Of a stretch of 33,164 bases of DNA, positions 2,981 to 23,451 are shown in pieces. The first letter of the stretch is position 1, and every line of letters starts with the position of its first letter. The stretch lies in contig VXOP01000416.1 in the NCBI GenBank assembly GCA_009839975.1, positions 3,988-37,151 on the forward strand. Direction: 5' to 3'. Under the pieces are notes generated by a model that did not search any database, was not told where the DNA came from, and worked only from the letters and a program-made list of their open reading frames with translations. The DNA comes from Candidatus Poribacteria bacterium (GTDB lineage: Bacteria > Poribacteria > WGA-4E > WGA-3G). The translations under genes and the position numbers were made by a program.

Positions 2981-3568
2981 ATGAGAAGAAAAATATTCGT
3001 CTGTTGTCTCATTCTGATGGGTAGCTGCCTTATCAACGTATTTGCTGCAGATACTCCCGATGATGGCGGTGGATTATTGAGTCTACTCGGTATTAATCCA
3101 CAAGTCATTCTCAGTCAGATTCCTGCATTTCTAATCGTGCTTTTGGTACTCTGGAAGTTTGTTTTCGGTAAAGTCGGAGGAATGTTGGACGAACGTCGAA
3201 CTGAAATTACGACGCAGTTAGAACAGTTGAAAACTGACCGAGAGGAATTAGATCGTCTCACCGTTGAAACACGGCAACGTTTAGGTGATATTGAAAATGA
3301 GGCGCAAGCCAAAATTCAAGCGGCGATTGATCAAGGGAACAGTGAACGGCAGCAGATCGTCGCACAAGCACGGCAGGAAGCTGAAGATGAAATCACACGC
3401 GCACGCGCAGAAATTCAACGCGAGAAAGACGATGCAATCTTAGAACTACGCGGTGTTGTCGCTGAACTCGCTGTTGATGCAGCCAGCAAAATCATTCGGG
3501 CAGAACTCAATACAGAGAGACATCAGAGTATTATTGACGCTTCTATTGGCAGATTGTCAGCAGAATAG
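2981..3568 (+). CDS. atpF: F0F1 ATP synthase subunit b
   Basis: This is the peripheral-stalk subunit, 195 residues. A hydrophobic N-terminus (about 5-22, ...INVFA before AD) looks like a signal peptide. A true membrane helix follows at about 42-63, then GGMLDERRTEI and a long charged coiled coil (70-170) that dimerises and reaches the delta subunit. The family usually has about 155-170 residues, and the extra length is the signal peptide. It starts 83 nt after atpE with a weak AGGG site, consistent with lower expression than c. The rest of subunit b is canonical. Confidence 0.93.
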   Translation: MRRKIFVCCLILMGSCLINVFAADTPDDGGGLLSLLGINPQVILSQIPAFLIVLLVLWKFVFGKVGGMLDERRTEITTQLEQLKTDREELDRLTVETRQRLGDIENEAQAKIQAAIDQGNSERQQIVAQARQEAEDEITRARAEIQREKDDAILELRGVVAELAVDAASKIIRAELNTERHQSIIDASIGRLSAE

Positions 3569-4267: not shown

Positions 4268-5875
4268 ATGGCAAGAGAAGTCCGACCGGACGAAATATCA
4301 AATATACTAAAACAACAGCTGCAACAGTTCGATCAGGACGTGGATGTCTATGATTCCGGCACTGTTCTGGAGGTAGGTGATGGTATCGCACGGGTGCATG
4401 GACTCGCCAACGCAATGGCGAGTGAAATGATTGAATTCCCAAACGATATTTACGGGATCGCTTTTAACCTTGAAGAAGACAACGTCGGTTGTGTGCTGTT
4501 CGGTGAAGACCAACTCATACATGAAGGTGATACAGTAAGACGAACAGGTAGATTGGCAGAAGTTCCCGTCGGTGAAGCTCTTCTCGGACGGATGGTTGAT
4601 GCGCTCGGTGAACCTATTGATGGTTTAGGTGAAATCAACACAGTGCACCGACTTCCCGTGGAACAGAAAGGGTTAGGTATCGTTCAACGTCAACCTGTGA
4701 GTGAACCGCTCTACACCGGCTTGAAGGCTATTGACAGTCTAACACCTATCGGTAGAGGTCAACGTGAACTGATTATCGGTGACCGCAGAACTGGCAAAAC
4801 CGCAATAGCAATTGATGCTATTCTGAGCCAGAGGAACACTGATGTCTACTGCATCTATGTTGCGATTGGGCAAAAAGGGTCTACACTTGCACAAGTTGCC
4901 AATACCCTTCGTGAACACAATGCGATGGAATATACGACAATTGTTTCAGCACCAGCAAGTGCGCCGTCTCCGCTACAATATCTCGCGCCTTATTCAGGCA
5001 CATCCATGGCAGAATACTATCGGGATAACGGCAAACACGCGCTCATCATATACGATGACTTGACAAAACACGCGTGGGCATACCGACAGATGTCCCTACT
5101 TTCCCGTAGACCGCCAGGCCGTGAAGCGTATCCCGGTGATGTCTTCTATCTGCACTCACGTCTATTAGAACGTGCAGCAAAACTGAGTGACGATCTTGGA
5201 GGTGGTTCCCTTACGGCATTACCGATTATTGAGATCTTTGAAGGTGATTTGACGACTTACATCCCAACAAATGTTATTTCCATTACCGATGGACAAATAT
5301 ACCTTACAACGGACCTATTTAACCAAGGTGTGAGACCCGCTATTGATGTTGGCACATCTGTTTCGCGTGTGGGTGGTGATGCACAGGTCAAAGCCATGAA
5401 ATCAGACGAAGTTGCTGGAACACTAAAGCTTGACCTTGCCAGTTTCCGAGAGGTAGCAGCGTTTGCACAGTTCGGATCGGATTTGGATGCGTTAACAAGA
5501 TCACAATTGGATCGTGGCGAGCGACTCGTGGAACTGTTAAAACAACCACAATATGAACCGATGCCTGTAGAAAGAGAAGTTGCCTCTATCTTTTGTGGTA
5601 CAAACGGCTATTTAGACGATGTTCCTGAGTCTGAAGTCGCGCGATTTGAGTCTGAATTCCTACAATACCTTGACAGGAATCATGCAGAGCTCCTCTCAGA
5701 AATTGCTGAAACGGGTCTGTTAGGTGATGAAGCACTTGAGGCATTACATGCTGCGGTCAAAGCATTTAAGGAAAATTGGAGCAATACACCAGCAGAACAA
5801 CCGAAAACCGAGGAAGTACCAGCAGATGAACCCGCCGCAGAGGAAACAGCGGAAACTCACACAGAAGGTGAATGA
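4268..5875 (+). CDS. atpA: F0F1 ATP synthase subunit alpha
   Basis: This is the non-catalytic nucleotide-binding subunit of F1, 535 residues. The Walker A motif GDRRTGKT is at 171-178. The block [19 protein letters not shown] and then [20 protein letters not shown] are canonical. The family signature [14 protein letters not shown] (357-370) supplies the arginine finger R367 to the catalytic site on beta. The protein ends in an unusual acidic, Pro/Glu/Ala-rich tail of about 30 residues (from about 506), beyond the normal alpha C-terminus. Its stop TGA overlaps the atpG start as ATGA, so the two are probably translationally coupled. Confidence 0.97.
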
Positions 5876-16250: not shown

Positions 16251-16348
16251 TATTATCATTAAGTGGCGTTAACGATAATAAGACTTTTCCCTATTATCGT
16301 TAAGTGGCGTTAACGATAATAAGACTTTTCCCTATTATCGTTAAGTGG
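16251..16348 (+). repeat. tandem 41-bp operator-like repeats ahead of the fic gene
   Basis: Two 41-bp units (16251-16291 and 16292-16332, differing at one base) are followed by a third partial unit (16333-16348) ending 6 nt before the fic ATG. Each full unit carries ATTATCGTTAA and its reverse complement around GTGGCG, a typical dimeric repressor site (one mismatch in unit 1). The third unit keeps only TATTATCGTTAAGTGG. The sites overlap the expected promoter and ribosome binding region, so binding would shut the gene off. No clear sigma70 boxes stand out. Confidence 0.75.
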
Positions 16349-16354
16349 ACTAAA

Positions 16355-17539
16355 ATGAATCCAGCAAACTTTAGAAAATCAAATGCGGGTAGATGTATAC
16401 GTAGCATAGGTCAGCACTCATATTGGGCTTATGTTCCCAATCCGCTTCCTCCGAAAATCGAATTGGATTGGGATTTGGTGAATCTGCTCTCAGAAGCAAA
16501 CATTAGACTTGGAGAATTGTCTGGTGCAGGACAACAACTACCAAATCCACACTTATTAATTGGTCCATTTATTCGACGAGAGGCAGTGATGAGTTCAAGA
16601 ATTGAAAACACTCAATCTGGTCTGGACCAACTCTTTTTATTTGAAGCAGATAAAACAGAGGAACCGCAAATACCTGATGTGAAGGAACTTCTCAATTATG
16701 TTAACGCTATGGAATATGGGATAAAAAGACTGGAGAACTTACCAGTAAGTTCAAGGTTACTCTGTGAAATCCACGAGGTCTTAATGAGAGGAGTCCGGGG
16801 TGAACACGCGACACCAGGGCTGCTTCGCACAACGCAAAATTGGATTGGAAAACCCGGATGTACTTTGACAGACGCGACTTTTGTTCCACCACCCGTGCCA
16901 GAGATGAAGGAGTGTTTTTCAGAACTAGAGAAGTATGTCCATTCCAACGCGAAAGAACCTTCTTTAATTCAAAATGCTTTGATTCATTATCAATTTGAGG
17001 CAATTCACCCATTCATTGATGGAAATGGAAGAATCGGCAGAATCCTTATTATTCTCCAGTTAATTGAAAAAGGCGCACTATCACAACCACTACTCTACCT
17101 TTCCGATTTTTTCGAGCGGCATAGAGATACCTACTATGAACTCCTATTGAATGTAAGCCAACAAGGTGATTGGAACTCTTGGCTCACATTTTTCTTACAA
17201 GGTATTTGCCAACAGTCAGAAGATGCCTTAACGACGATTCAAAAGTTACTTGCGTTAAAAGATGAGTATAAGGAAATAGTAATAGAAAAAAGAGTACCAG
17301 CAACAGTAAACCTTTTAATTGAACATCTATTTGGAAGTCCAATTATTTCAATTTCAGAATTGGCGAAGGCATGGGAATCAACATTTCCTAATGTCCAGCG
17401 AGGCGTAGATTACCTTGTCAACAAGGGTAAACTCAGGGAAATGACAGGTCAACAGCGCAACCGTTTATTCGTAGCAGACGAAATTCTTGATATAATCATG
17501 ACTGAAAGAACAAAATCAGTCTTATTAATAGAAGATTAG
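16355..17539 (+). CDS. fic: Fic-family AMP-transferase (class II, with winged-helix C-terminus)
   Basis: This 394-residue protein transfers AMP (or another nucleotide group) to a hydroxyl of a target protein. The catalytic motif HPFIDGNGRIGR is at 218-229. An N-terminal Fic_N-type region contains SSRIEN (80-85), matching the inhibitory motif (S/T)xxxE(G/N), with E84 expected to block the ATP gamma-phosphate. The C-terminus (about 333-385) looks like a winged helix (SISELAKAWESTFPNVQRGVDYLVNKGKL) and may bind DNA. The start at 16355 excludes the frame running back through the repeats. No good ribosome binding site is seen; the transcript may be leaderless. Confidence 0.92.
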   Translation: MNPANFRKSNAGRCIRSIGQHSYWAYVPNPLPPKIELDWDLVNLLSEANIRLGELSGAGQQLPNPHLLIGPFIRREAVMSSRIENTQSGLDQLFLFEADKTEEPQIPDVKELLNYVNAMEYGIKRLENLPVSSRLLCEIHEVLMRGVRGEHATPGLLRTTQNWIGKPGCTLTDATFVPPPVPEMKECFSELEKYVHSNAKEPSLIQNALIHYQFEAIHPFIDGNGRIGRILIILQLIEKGALSQPLLYLSDFFERHRDTYYELLLNVSQQGDWNSWLTFFLQGICQQSEDALTTIQKLLALKDEYKEIVIEKRVPATVNLLIEHLFGSPIISISELAKAWESTFPNVQRGVDYLVNKGKLREMTGQQRNRLFVADEILDIIMTERTKSVLLIED

Positions 17540-18390: not shown

Positions 18391-19554
18391 ATGAAATACT
18401 ACATCCCTTACCTCACATTACTACTCTCTTTTACGCTCTTTGCAAGTGCAGTGGACTACGACAAAGACCCAATCCGAACCCTATTACCTTTTGACGCAAT
18501 CCCTGCCATCACCAAACCACAATTTGTATCTGCTGTTGCGGCACGATTAGATGATGATGCTCCTGTGATTGGCGTAACTTTCAATGGTGAAAGTCATGCC
18601 TACTCACTCTATCTACTAAACGGTCACGAGATCGTCAACGATGTTGTGGGTGGTAAAAAAATAGCAACGACATGGTGACCACTCTGCAACACGGCTATCG
18701 TGTATAGTCGGGAACTTGAGGGTAAAACCTATACCTTCGGTGTCAGCGGAAAACTGTGGCGCGATGCGTTGCTAATGTATGACCATCAAACCCGTTCCCT
18801 CTGGTCACATATCACCGGTGAAGCGATTCAAGGAAAACTCAAAGGCAAGAAATTGAAACCGCTCGTCTCTATGCCACAAATTGCGTGGAAAGCATGGAAA
18901 GAGAACTATCCTGATACAAGAGTACTTTCGGTTAGTTACAGAGGGAAAATGGTAGAGAGTCTAAGTCATGACTCATATCAGAGGTATCATAAAAGCCAAG
19001 ACACAGGTGTGAGTGGAACGGAATACACCGATAAAAGATTACCGAATAAACAGCTTGTCATCGGAGTTCAAGTACAGCGAAAATATGGTGAGGGTGGATT
19101 AGCTGGTCAGGCCGGGGCTGATGGACAAGCAGGGGCTGATGGACAAGCAGGGGCTGATGGAAAACCCGGTGATCCCGGTGCAGTTGACCAATATAGCACA
19201 CAGTATCGCGCCTATCCGCTTACACAATTTACTAAAATCGCTATGATCAACGATACAGTAAACGGAGTGCCTTTGTTAATCTTTCACGACATAGAGTCGT
19301 TTGCAACCGCTGCCTTTAAACGTATAGTAGACAATAAGGTGATTATTTTTACAGCCATAGACGGTCATTTCGCTCAAGATAATTCCGGCACAGAATGGAA
19401 TCTCATTACAGGTAAAGCGACAAAAGGAAAACACAAAGGGAAACGTTTACAACGACTATCCTCCGTCAATATTTACTGGTTCGCGTGGGCACGTTTCTAT
19501 CCTAAAACAACAATTTATAGGAATAATAAATCAAACGTCCATTTTGATTTCTAA
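18391..19554 (+). CDS. exported DUF3179 protein, candidate selenoprotein (in-frame UGA), with collagen-like insert
   Basis: Reading the TGA at 18676-18678 through, the frame encodes 387 residues. Residues 1-20 are a signal peptide (ends LFASA). The DUF3179 domain is clear: IGVTFNGESHAYSLYLLNGHEIVND, then TTW-[UGA]-PLCNTAIVYSRELEGKTYTFGVSGKL, ALLMYDHQTRSLWSHITGEAIQGKL. The UGA (codon 96) stands exactly where relatives have the first Cys of CPLC, giving UPLC if read as selenocysteine. The frame continues 292 codons with no other stop. About ten Gly-X-Y triplets (19096-19185) interrupt the second half. TAAGGAA 7 nt upstream supports the start. Alternatives are a nonsense mutation or sequencing error. 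The biochemical role of DUF3179 is unknown. Confidence 0.75.
18676..18703 (+). promoter_or_regulatory. UGA codon and SECIS-like stem-loop
   Basis: Downstream of the UGA, ACACG (18689-18693) pairs with CGTGT (18699-18703) around the loop GCTAT. The loop begins with G, 16 nt after the UGA, fitting the general bacterial SECIS pattern (short stem, G among the first loop bases, about 16-37 nt away). The stem is short and could occur by chance. Confidence 0.5.
19096..19185 (+). repeat. collagen-like Gly-X-Y region with 18-bp tandem repeat
   Basis: Ten consecutive G-X-Y codon triplets (GLA GQA GAD GQA GAD GQA GAD GKP GDP GAV). The DNA repeats an 18-bp unit encoding GADGQA at 19114-19131 and 19132-19149, with a partial copy to 19161, so slippage can change the length. 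Confidence 0.85.
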
Positions 19555-21678: not shown

Positions 21679-22440
21679 TCAACCGTCCAATTCTACGACT
21701 TCACCTGTCATATCACGATGCATCGTCGGACGAATGACCAATTCGGGAATGTTGCTTCGTGGGGGTAGTGTTGCAACGAGAAGGATCGCTGCTGATGTTT
21801 CTGCTACATCTACCATCATGGCGCGTGCGTCAGTGTCCGGCGGAATAGGACGTTTATCCAAAATGGGTGTTGCAACTTCTCCAGGAATTATAACGCTTGC
21901 TCTGATACCCGTATTCCGTAGATCATTGTTGAGAAACTCGGTGAAGTTGATGACTCCTGCCTTCGCTGCACCATAGGCAAACCCACTGAAGGGGCCAGGT
22001 GTAACCGCAGCAAGCGAAGATATATTGATTATCGTTCCCGATTTCGCTTTCAGCATTGTTGGCACAACCGCTTGTGTGCAGAAAAATGTGCCTATTAGAT
22101 TTGAGTCAACTACTGAACGTGTTTCTTCAGGTGTCGTATTGAGGAGTCTACGATTGTGGGAACTGTGTCCAGCATTGTTCACCAGCACATCTATGCGACC
22201 ATATTTCTCATACACATCATCAACCATCTTTTGAACGGCATTGAAATCTGATACATCAAGCGTGTAATATTCAGCCGTTCCACCCATAGTCTTGATTTCT
22301 GATATAGTAGACTCTAATTTTGATTCTGTTCTACCCACGATCACGACGGTTGCACCTTCTCGTGCTATTTTAAGTGCAGCATCACGACCGATTCCGCTAC
22401 CACCCCCCGTTATTATACACACTTGATCCTTTAGTTTCAT
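21679..22440 (-). CDS. short-chain dehydrogenase/reductase
   Basis: This is a classical 253-residue SDR. The cofactor motif TGGGSGIG is at 11-18, NNAG at 88-91, and the catalytic Ser (S141/S142), Tyr (Y156) and Lys (K160 in YGAAK) follow the usual spacing. R37 after the second strand suggests NADP(H). It oxidises or reduces a hydroxyl/carbonyl of unknown substrate. Its ATG overlaps the preceding PhyH stop (ATGA), and its GGAGGTGA ribosome binding site lies inside that gene, so translation is coupled; the pair may act in sequence on one substrate. Confidence 0.92.
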   Translation of the reverse strand: MKLKDQVCIITGGGSGIGRDAALKIAREGATVVIVGRTESKLESTISEIKTMGGTAEYYTLDVSDFNAVQKMVDDVYEKYGRIDVLVNNAGHSSHNRRLLNTTPEETRSVVDSNLIGTFFCTQAVVPTMLKAKSGTIINISSLAAVTPGPFSGFAYGAAKAGVINFTEFLNNDLRNTGIRASVIIPGEVATPILDKRPIPPDTDARAMMVDVAETSAAILLVATLPPRSNIPELVIRPTMHRDMTGEVVELDG

Positions 22441-23273
22441 ACTTCACCTCCATTTGGTAAAATGCGTTTCACTACCGACTTCAGTTCTTTTGAAAATGAT
22501 TCCAGTTCATACTGTTCCTCTGATATTTTATCACGATGTTCATCAAACGGATACCCACCCTTTCCATTTTCATTGAAATAAACGCTCAACTGATACCGTT
22601 GAAAAATGTTCATGCGTGGATAATCCTCTGTCCATGGACTAGCATCGTGAAGCAGATTCGTTGAGAAAACCGCCACATCACCCGCTTGCATCGGTAACGT
22701 AATTGAGGTAGGTGGGTCATGTTTTACAGGTAAATGTTCTGGTGTCTTGAATTGAGATTTATGACTTCCGGGGACAAGGCAAAATCCTGTTCCCGGTGGT
22801 ACATCTACCAATGCCACCCATGTCGCAAGGTGGTTACAATAGACATGTCCCGATGCTGCTTGATAATCGTTATGCGGATTGCGGAACCCTTGTGGGAACT
22901 TAAATCCGCTATCATCACGGTGAAAGTGTTGCGGATAGTCGTGCTTCGTCATCATCGTAAAATTGTTGTGAAAGAGACGCGGCGCGTTCATCATCAAACC
23001 TGCTACAACTCTAATAATATCTGGGTTCATCGCAAGGTCTTGAAATAGCCGATGTCCATATTGAATATGTCCTATATGTGTCTTGCAAGGTTCTTGTCTG
23101 CCGCGATGTAATGGTGGCGGAATGTCGGATTCATCAATCGTTAGCCAATGTCGTAACACCTCTAACATCTCACCAATCTCACCCTTTGAAATTACATTCC
23201 GCAAGACCAAAAAACCGTGTAAATCAAAGTACCACTTTTCCTCTTCAGTTAAAGTGGAATGAATAGTGAACAT
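22437..23273 (-). CDS. phytanoyl-CoA dioxygenase (PhyH) family protein 4
   Basis: This is a 278-residue Fe(II)/2-oxoglutarate dioxygenase. Probable ligands are H118 and D120 in HFHRDDSGF and H209 in NLLHDASPW; R220 may bind 2-oxoglutarate. The core is VALVDVPPGTGFCLVPGSHKSQF (split over 153-175). The ATG at 23273 is chosen because GGAGA in the preceding codons gives a well-placed ribosome binding site; an ATG 12 nt upstream has none. It is the first gene of a minus-strand unit with the SDR and CPBP genes. The substrate is unknown. Confidence 0.87.
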   Translation of the reverse strand: MFTIHSTLTEEEKWYFDLHGFLVLRNVISKGEIGEMLEVLRHWLTIDESDIPPPLHRGRQEPCKTHIGHIQYGHRLFQDLAMNPDIIRVVAGLMMNAPRLFHNNFTMMTKHDYPQHFHRDDSGFKFPQGFRNPHNDYQAASGHVYCNHLATWVALVDVPPGTGFCLVPGSHKSQFKTPEHLPVKHDPPTSITLPMQAGDVAVFSTNLLHDASPWTEDYPRMNIFQRYQLSVYFNENGKGGYPFDEHRDKISEEQYELESFSKELKSVVKRILPNGGEV

Positions 23274-23451
23274 TAATCTCTCCATCGTTGTTGGTTCTGT
23301 TGAATCATAGATTATCAGAATTAGCCAATATTTACAAGTAGTGATATTCAGTTTTATCGTTTCTCTATCATTCCCAAACCCGGCATTTGTACCTTAAAAT
23401 GTTCTTTACACGTTAAACTAATAGGTAAAAACACCTTCAGATTGGAATAAG

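Follow-up and report, generated by a model that had tools for sequence, protein, structure and literature searches.

A predicted exported selenoprotein of the DUF3179 family in Candidatus Poribacteria

A DUF3179 gene of a sponge-associated Candidatus Poribacteria bacterium is crossed by an in-frame TGA, raising the question of whether this codon terminates the protein, marks a damaged gene or is decoded as selenocysteine (Sec). The locus lies in a stretch of 33,164 nucleotides (hereafter the window), and an earlier note made from the letters of the window had proposed that UGA replaces the first cysteine of a CPLC motif. The analysis described below supports both the reality of the TGA and its interpretation as a selenoprotein codon, and all the checks run from among those that the note had suggested came out on its side. 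The gene almost certainly encodes an exported DUF3179 selenoprotein, in which Sec would be inserted at the UGA via SelB and a downstream hairpin, yielding a Sec96-x-x-Cys99 redox centre.

Table 1 Features of the DUF3179 locus (positions in the window)
Feature	Position	Strand	Remarks
DUF3179 selenoprotein gene	18391..19554	+	387 aa including U96, TAA stop; same TGA in relatives
Likely signal peptide	18391..18450	+	MKYYIPYLTLLLSFTLFASA then V; AxA-type site read from sequence
In-frame UGA, Sec96 of UPLC	18676..18678	+	Aligns with TGA in relatives and with TGC/TGT in Cys homologues
SECIS hairpin	18692..18710	+	Stem CGGCTAT/ATAGTCG, loop CGTGT at 18699-18703; pairing, covariation, frozen synonymous sites
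Collagen-like Gly-X-Y linker between DUF3179 halves	19087..19182	+	Low-confidence segment of structure model
C-terminal half	19186..19551	+	Homologous to N-terminal half, without UxxC

The in-frame TGA and the Sec machinery of the host

The TGA at codon 96 is the sole internal stop of the frame and is followed by 291 sense codons and the TAA. As the earlier note had claimed, similarity to DUF3179 (PF11376) flanks the TGA on both sides (E 1.5e-77 over residues 35-231, plus a second stretch), with a score of 261.4 bits against a Pfam gathering cut-off of 27. Read-through gives TTW-U-PLC-NTAIVY, placing the C/U-P-L-C motif of the family at its conserved site as UPLC, the UxxC arrangement that had been anticipated. 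Decay elsewhere in the gene, which the note had named as evidence against its own reading, left no sign: there are no further stops and the frame is kept in relatives. Of the TGA codons in the window, four are flanked by 60 or more open codons on each side; the one at codon 96 is the only one for which a location within a conserved protein was shown. Because the standard code splits the gene into two open reading frames of 105 and 284 codons, it is liable to misannotation in Poribacteria genomes. Rfam gave no match at the site of the TGA and hairpin, and among NCBIfam models no DUF3179 or selenoprotein model matched; weak matches to collagen-like adhesin models covered the linker alone.

TGA is the normal stop of other recognisable genes in the window, including those for ATP synthase alpha/beta (4268-5875) and a short-chain dehydrogenase (21679-22440), and thus the genetic code is not reassigned, as the note had also held. 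A search for Sec machinery in the host genome (G000; 4.78 Mb, 454 contigs), which the note had suggested, recovered every component sought. These were a tRNA-Sec with a UCA anticodon (77.7 bits, above the Rfam cut-off; 3317-3406 of its contig), selB some 100 bases upstream on the same contig (1319-3214, 358 bits), selA (592 bits, E 7e-178) and selD (366 bits, E 2e-109). The selD gene (L018, 715-1857 on the minus strand of contig C11) has an in-frame TGA of its own at the active site, VKCAG-U-ASK; it is therefore the Sec form of selenophosphate synthetase and itself a selenoprotein here, a form listed as UxxK in PMC13188914.

These observations bear on a reading in which the UGA is translated by other means, through general suppression or recoding as Trp or Cys, or works as a regulated stop from which two products, one short and one long, arise. 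Termination and Sec decoding are in general competitors, an indirect point in favour of this reading. It is made very unlikely by the TGAs that terminate other genes of the window, by the presence of a dedicated set of tRNA-Sec, SelA, SelB and SelD, and by the behaviour of the hairpin in Cys-encoding relatives described below.

A conserved hairpin downstream of the UGA

A hairpin begins 13 nt after the UGA. Its RNA form in the window is 18692-CGGCUAU-CGUGU-AUAGUCG-18710, and across sequences it reads CGGCUAU-CGUGU-AUAGYCG. The corresponding codons, +5 to +9 counting from the UGA, read ACG GCT ATC GTG TAT in 61 distinct sequences, with only one synonymous exception where the amino acid is retained. 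Outside this segment, 82 positions are equally conserved in amino acid, and at none of them does one codon account for at least 98% of sequences. In a set of 44 sequences thinned to less than 90% identity, the mean pairwise synonymous difference was 0.009 at codons +5 to +9 versus 0.56 elsewhere; the next lowest five-codon run stood at 0.41, and 0 of 100,000 resamples were as low as the hairpin segment.

Pairing at these positions follows the UGA. All seven pairs are formed in 52 of 54 TGA haplotypes and six of seven in the other two. Among ten Cys haplotypes, the number of pairs is at most four in all except an acidobacterial sequence (L103), which forms six. This association of the hairpin with the UGA, and its disruption in nine of ten Cys haplotypes, argues further against decoding by means other than Sec. 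When distant Sec forms were added, the hairpin remained 92.9% paired, and three pairs changed on both sides with pairing kept. Compensatory cells changed on both sides numbered 13, whereas shuffles gave 4.0 and none of the 500 came that high, and slid controls of the same alignment were 18-43% paired. RNAalifold recovered the five inner pairs of this helix, and the distance from loop to UGA was constant in all 16 sequences of the covariation alignment.

The search for a bacterial SECIS that the note had proposed thus ended in a conserved element within the expected geometry. According to PMC13188914, the bSECIS model has an upper stem of 4-16 bp, a loop of 3-9 nt lying 16-37 nt from the UGA, a G as first or second loop base and an energy of -7.5 kcal/mol or lower. 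The hairpin described here, with a 7-bp stem, a 5-nt loop whose second base is a G with a U after it, and a UGA-to-loop distance of 20 nt, lies inside all of these structural ranges. Its energy differs from that model: the isolated hairpin (22 nt) has -6.8 kcal/mol, and the -7.5 kcal/mol limit is passed only with flanking sequence, longer contexts giving -10 to -14 kcal/mol. A 46-nt context folded no better than shuffles (z -0.33), and minimum free energy alone was accordingly set aside as uninformative.

The note had itself named a different structure, a 5-bp stem with loop GCTAT. This stem does exist (ACACG-GCTAT-CGTGT, 18689-18703), but it overlaps the conserved hairpin and is mutually exclusive with it. 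Of 54 TGA haplotypes only 10 have it intact, and no covariation was seen in it; it was rejected as the SECIS.

UGA and Cys forms among relatives

DUF3179 is present in 75 of 85 genomes of the phylum. In two of the 75 the matches are fragments that do not cover the site; among the remaining 73, a copy with one internal TGA was found in 69, a count of genomes with a TGA-containing copy, the codon-96 site itself having been read directly in a subset of loci. In every Poribacteria-type sequence among the loci read directly, the TGA aligned to codon 96. Only Cys-type copies were found in four phylum genomes (G005, G009, G010 and G015), and the deep-branching genomes without a full selA (G003, G004, G005 and G010) have no TGA form. 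At the same site, TGC or TGT occurs in homologues of Vibrio, Ilumatobacter, one acidobacterium and deeper lineages of the phylum, in line with the Cys that the note had expected in relatives and with the alternation of Cys and UGA that it had proposed to look for. Taken together, the sequences make a clear case that Sec decoding in DUF3179 has been kept across most of the phylum Poribacteria.

A sequencing error or a recent nonsense mutation that made a pseudogene would also place a TGA in this frame, and the window comes from a single contig of a metagenome-assembled genome (MAG) in which TGA and TGC are one base apart. The same TGA is nevertheless found in dozens of independent, independently assembled genomes down to about 50% protein identity, the frame has no other stops and the synonymous sites downstream are frozen, leaving this explanation with practically no credence.

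In a small number of MAGs that carry the TGA gene, selA or tRNA-Sec is missing. Three genomes (G032, G060 and G061) have the gene but neither a complete selA nor a strong match to tRNA-Sec. Two of them are clearly incomplete (73% and 83%), and a gap in the MAG or its binning would explain the missing genes; the third, G061 (L117), is 96% complete, and there such a gap is a possible explanation.

The UGA form also occurs outside the main set, in the acidobacterial loci L102 and L104 and in L101. The Sec-type gene of L102 (636-1847, plus strand) encodes UPLAH, that is, Sec without its partner cysteine, and the second Cys of UxxC is therefore not always present. The acidobacterial Cys form L103 (2923-3894, plus strand) is the one that retains six of the seven SECIS pairs downstream, which may reflect a recent change from Sec to Cys. 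The TGA copy of three phylum genomes (G002, G007 and G008) represents a divergent paralogue (L113, L114 and L115) with the motif AATW-U-HLC and its own covarying hairpin at the same loop position.

The surroundings of the gene did not serve as a clue to DUF3179 function. Genes for a dehydrogenase and a PhyH dioxygenase downstream (21679-23285, minus strand) are conserved neighbours of DUF3179 in many Poribacteria and lie on the opposite strand; in the window they are separated from it by genes for another PhyH protein and a CAAX protease. Nothing was shared among the neighbours examined of DUF3179 homologues outside Poribacteria. Elsewhere in the window, a Fic protein (16304-17539, plus strand) closely resembles the SoFic model of PADLOC (E 3e-120) and is a candidate defence or AMPylation gene.

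Protein architecture, fold and relation to known families

Export of the DUF3179 protein is likely from its N-terminal sequence, and some relatives (L088, L105) carry a lipobox-like LFAC or LFGC in place of the AxA-type site. The two halves of the protein are homologous (hhalign probability 99.5, E 3e-22). Where the first half has UPLC the second carries HDxxS, which leaves a single candidate redox site. The collagen-like linker between them, found in the window gene and close relatives, holds 2.7 perfect copies of an 18-bp tandem repeat (19114-19161); among relatives it varies in length and is either collagen-like or of a GGDGGRGGDGG type (L053, L055, L097). His79 is invariant in 40 sequences.

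The conservation of the UGA, the SECIS, the Sec machinery and the domain duplication are strongly supported by sequence comparison. Beyond these, we infer the actual insertion of Sec, the export of the protein and a redox reaction with its substrate. During translation, SelB carrying Sec-tRNA-Sec would bind the hairpin, and selenocysteine would be put in at codon 96 instead of termination. The protein would then exit the cytoplasm via its signal peptide. In the first domain, Sec96-x-x-Cys99 may act as a selenol-thiol redox centre, as its motif suggests, while the second, duplicated domain, in which the pair has been lost, probably serves in structure or binding. A selenol-thiol redox centre outside the cytoplasm is the most likely function.

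Structure prediction offered a different view of the job of the protein, one that leaves the presence of Sec untouched. AlphaFold2 models of the full-length protein (pLDDT 84, pTM 0.84) and of the first domain (85 and 0.81) both found Rieske ferredoxins as their best PDB matches in Foldseek (e.g. 3gce, 5bok and 2qpz; probability up to 1.00). If the DUF3179 halves are Rieske-ferredoxin-like, the U/CxxC and the invariant His79 might make up a site for a metal or an altered Fe-S centre instead of one for thiol exchange. The leading matches have TM-scores on the target of about 0.5-0.59 and a best E-value of 0.014, with none at or below 0.001. A profile comparison with the Rieske proteins of the host genome found no homology (probability 0.7%). 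When the CxH ... CxxH cluster ligands of Rieske proteins were looked for in DUF3179, only H79, U96 and C99 were present, with no CxH box. A search of solved structures by sequence returned one insignificant match (E 0.33). The weak E-values, the negative profile comparison and the missing CxH box, together with the acidobacterial Sec form UPLAH, which does not have Cys99, make a metal or Fe-S site rather unlikely, and a selenol-thiol centre is preferred. It is similarly doubtful that DUF3179 arose as a duplicated, exported Rieske-like domain whose [2Fe-2S] ligands were lost and whose cluster loop became a Sec-x-x-Cys redox or metal site with His79, bearing Sec in most Poribacteria. In comparison with Rieske [2Fe-2S] ferredoxins, the predicted DUF3179 models have these as their nearest solved folds, but the E-values are weak, profile similarity is absent and the CxH...CxxH ligand set is missing; the fold is a weak, first structural lead and no more.

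Two reviews already count DUF3179 among selenoprotein families, with a UxxC/T motif (PMC9312934, PMC13188914), and therefore the poribacterial protein is an added member of that family and not a new kind. What the analysis adds is the retention across the phylum, the UHLC-type Sec paralogue in deeper lineages, the internal duplication with one degenerate site, the collagen-like linkers and, weakly, the Rieske ferredoxin fold as a lead. SelA and SelB have been noted in bins of sponge symbionts (PMC5649159), and the literature searched contained no paper naming both Poribacteria and selenoprotein. These data thus describe Sec decoding kept in most of a phylum that the searched literature does not tie to selenoproteins. 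They also delimit its SECIS sharply and give a family of unknown function its first lead on structure.

PMC13188914 (its ref. 60) credits the DUF3179 selenoprotein family to Zhang and Gladyshev 2007, from a symbiont of Olavius algarvensis. Compared with that family by its description there, the poribacterial protein is alike in belonging to PF11376, in carrying Sec within UxxC and in having Cys homologues. By the same description it differs in its host phylum, Poribacteria, in the retention of the UGA in nearly all genomes examined and in the collagen-like linker found in this genus.
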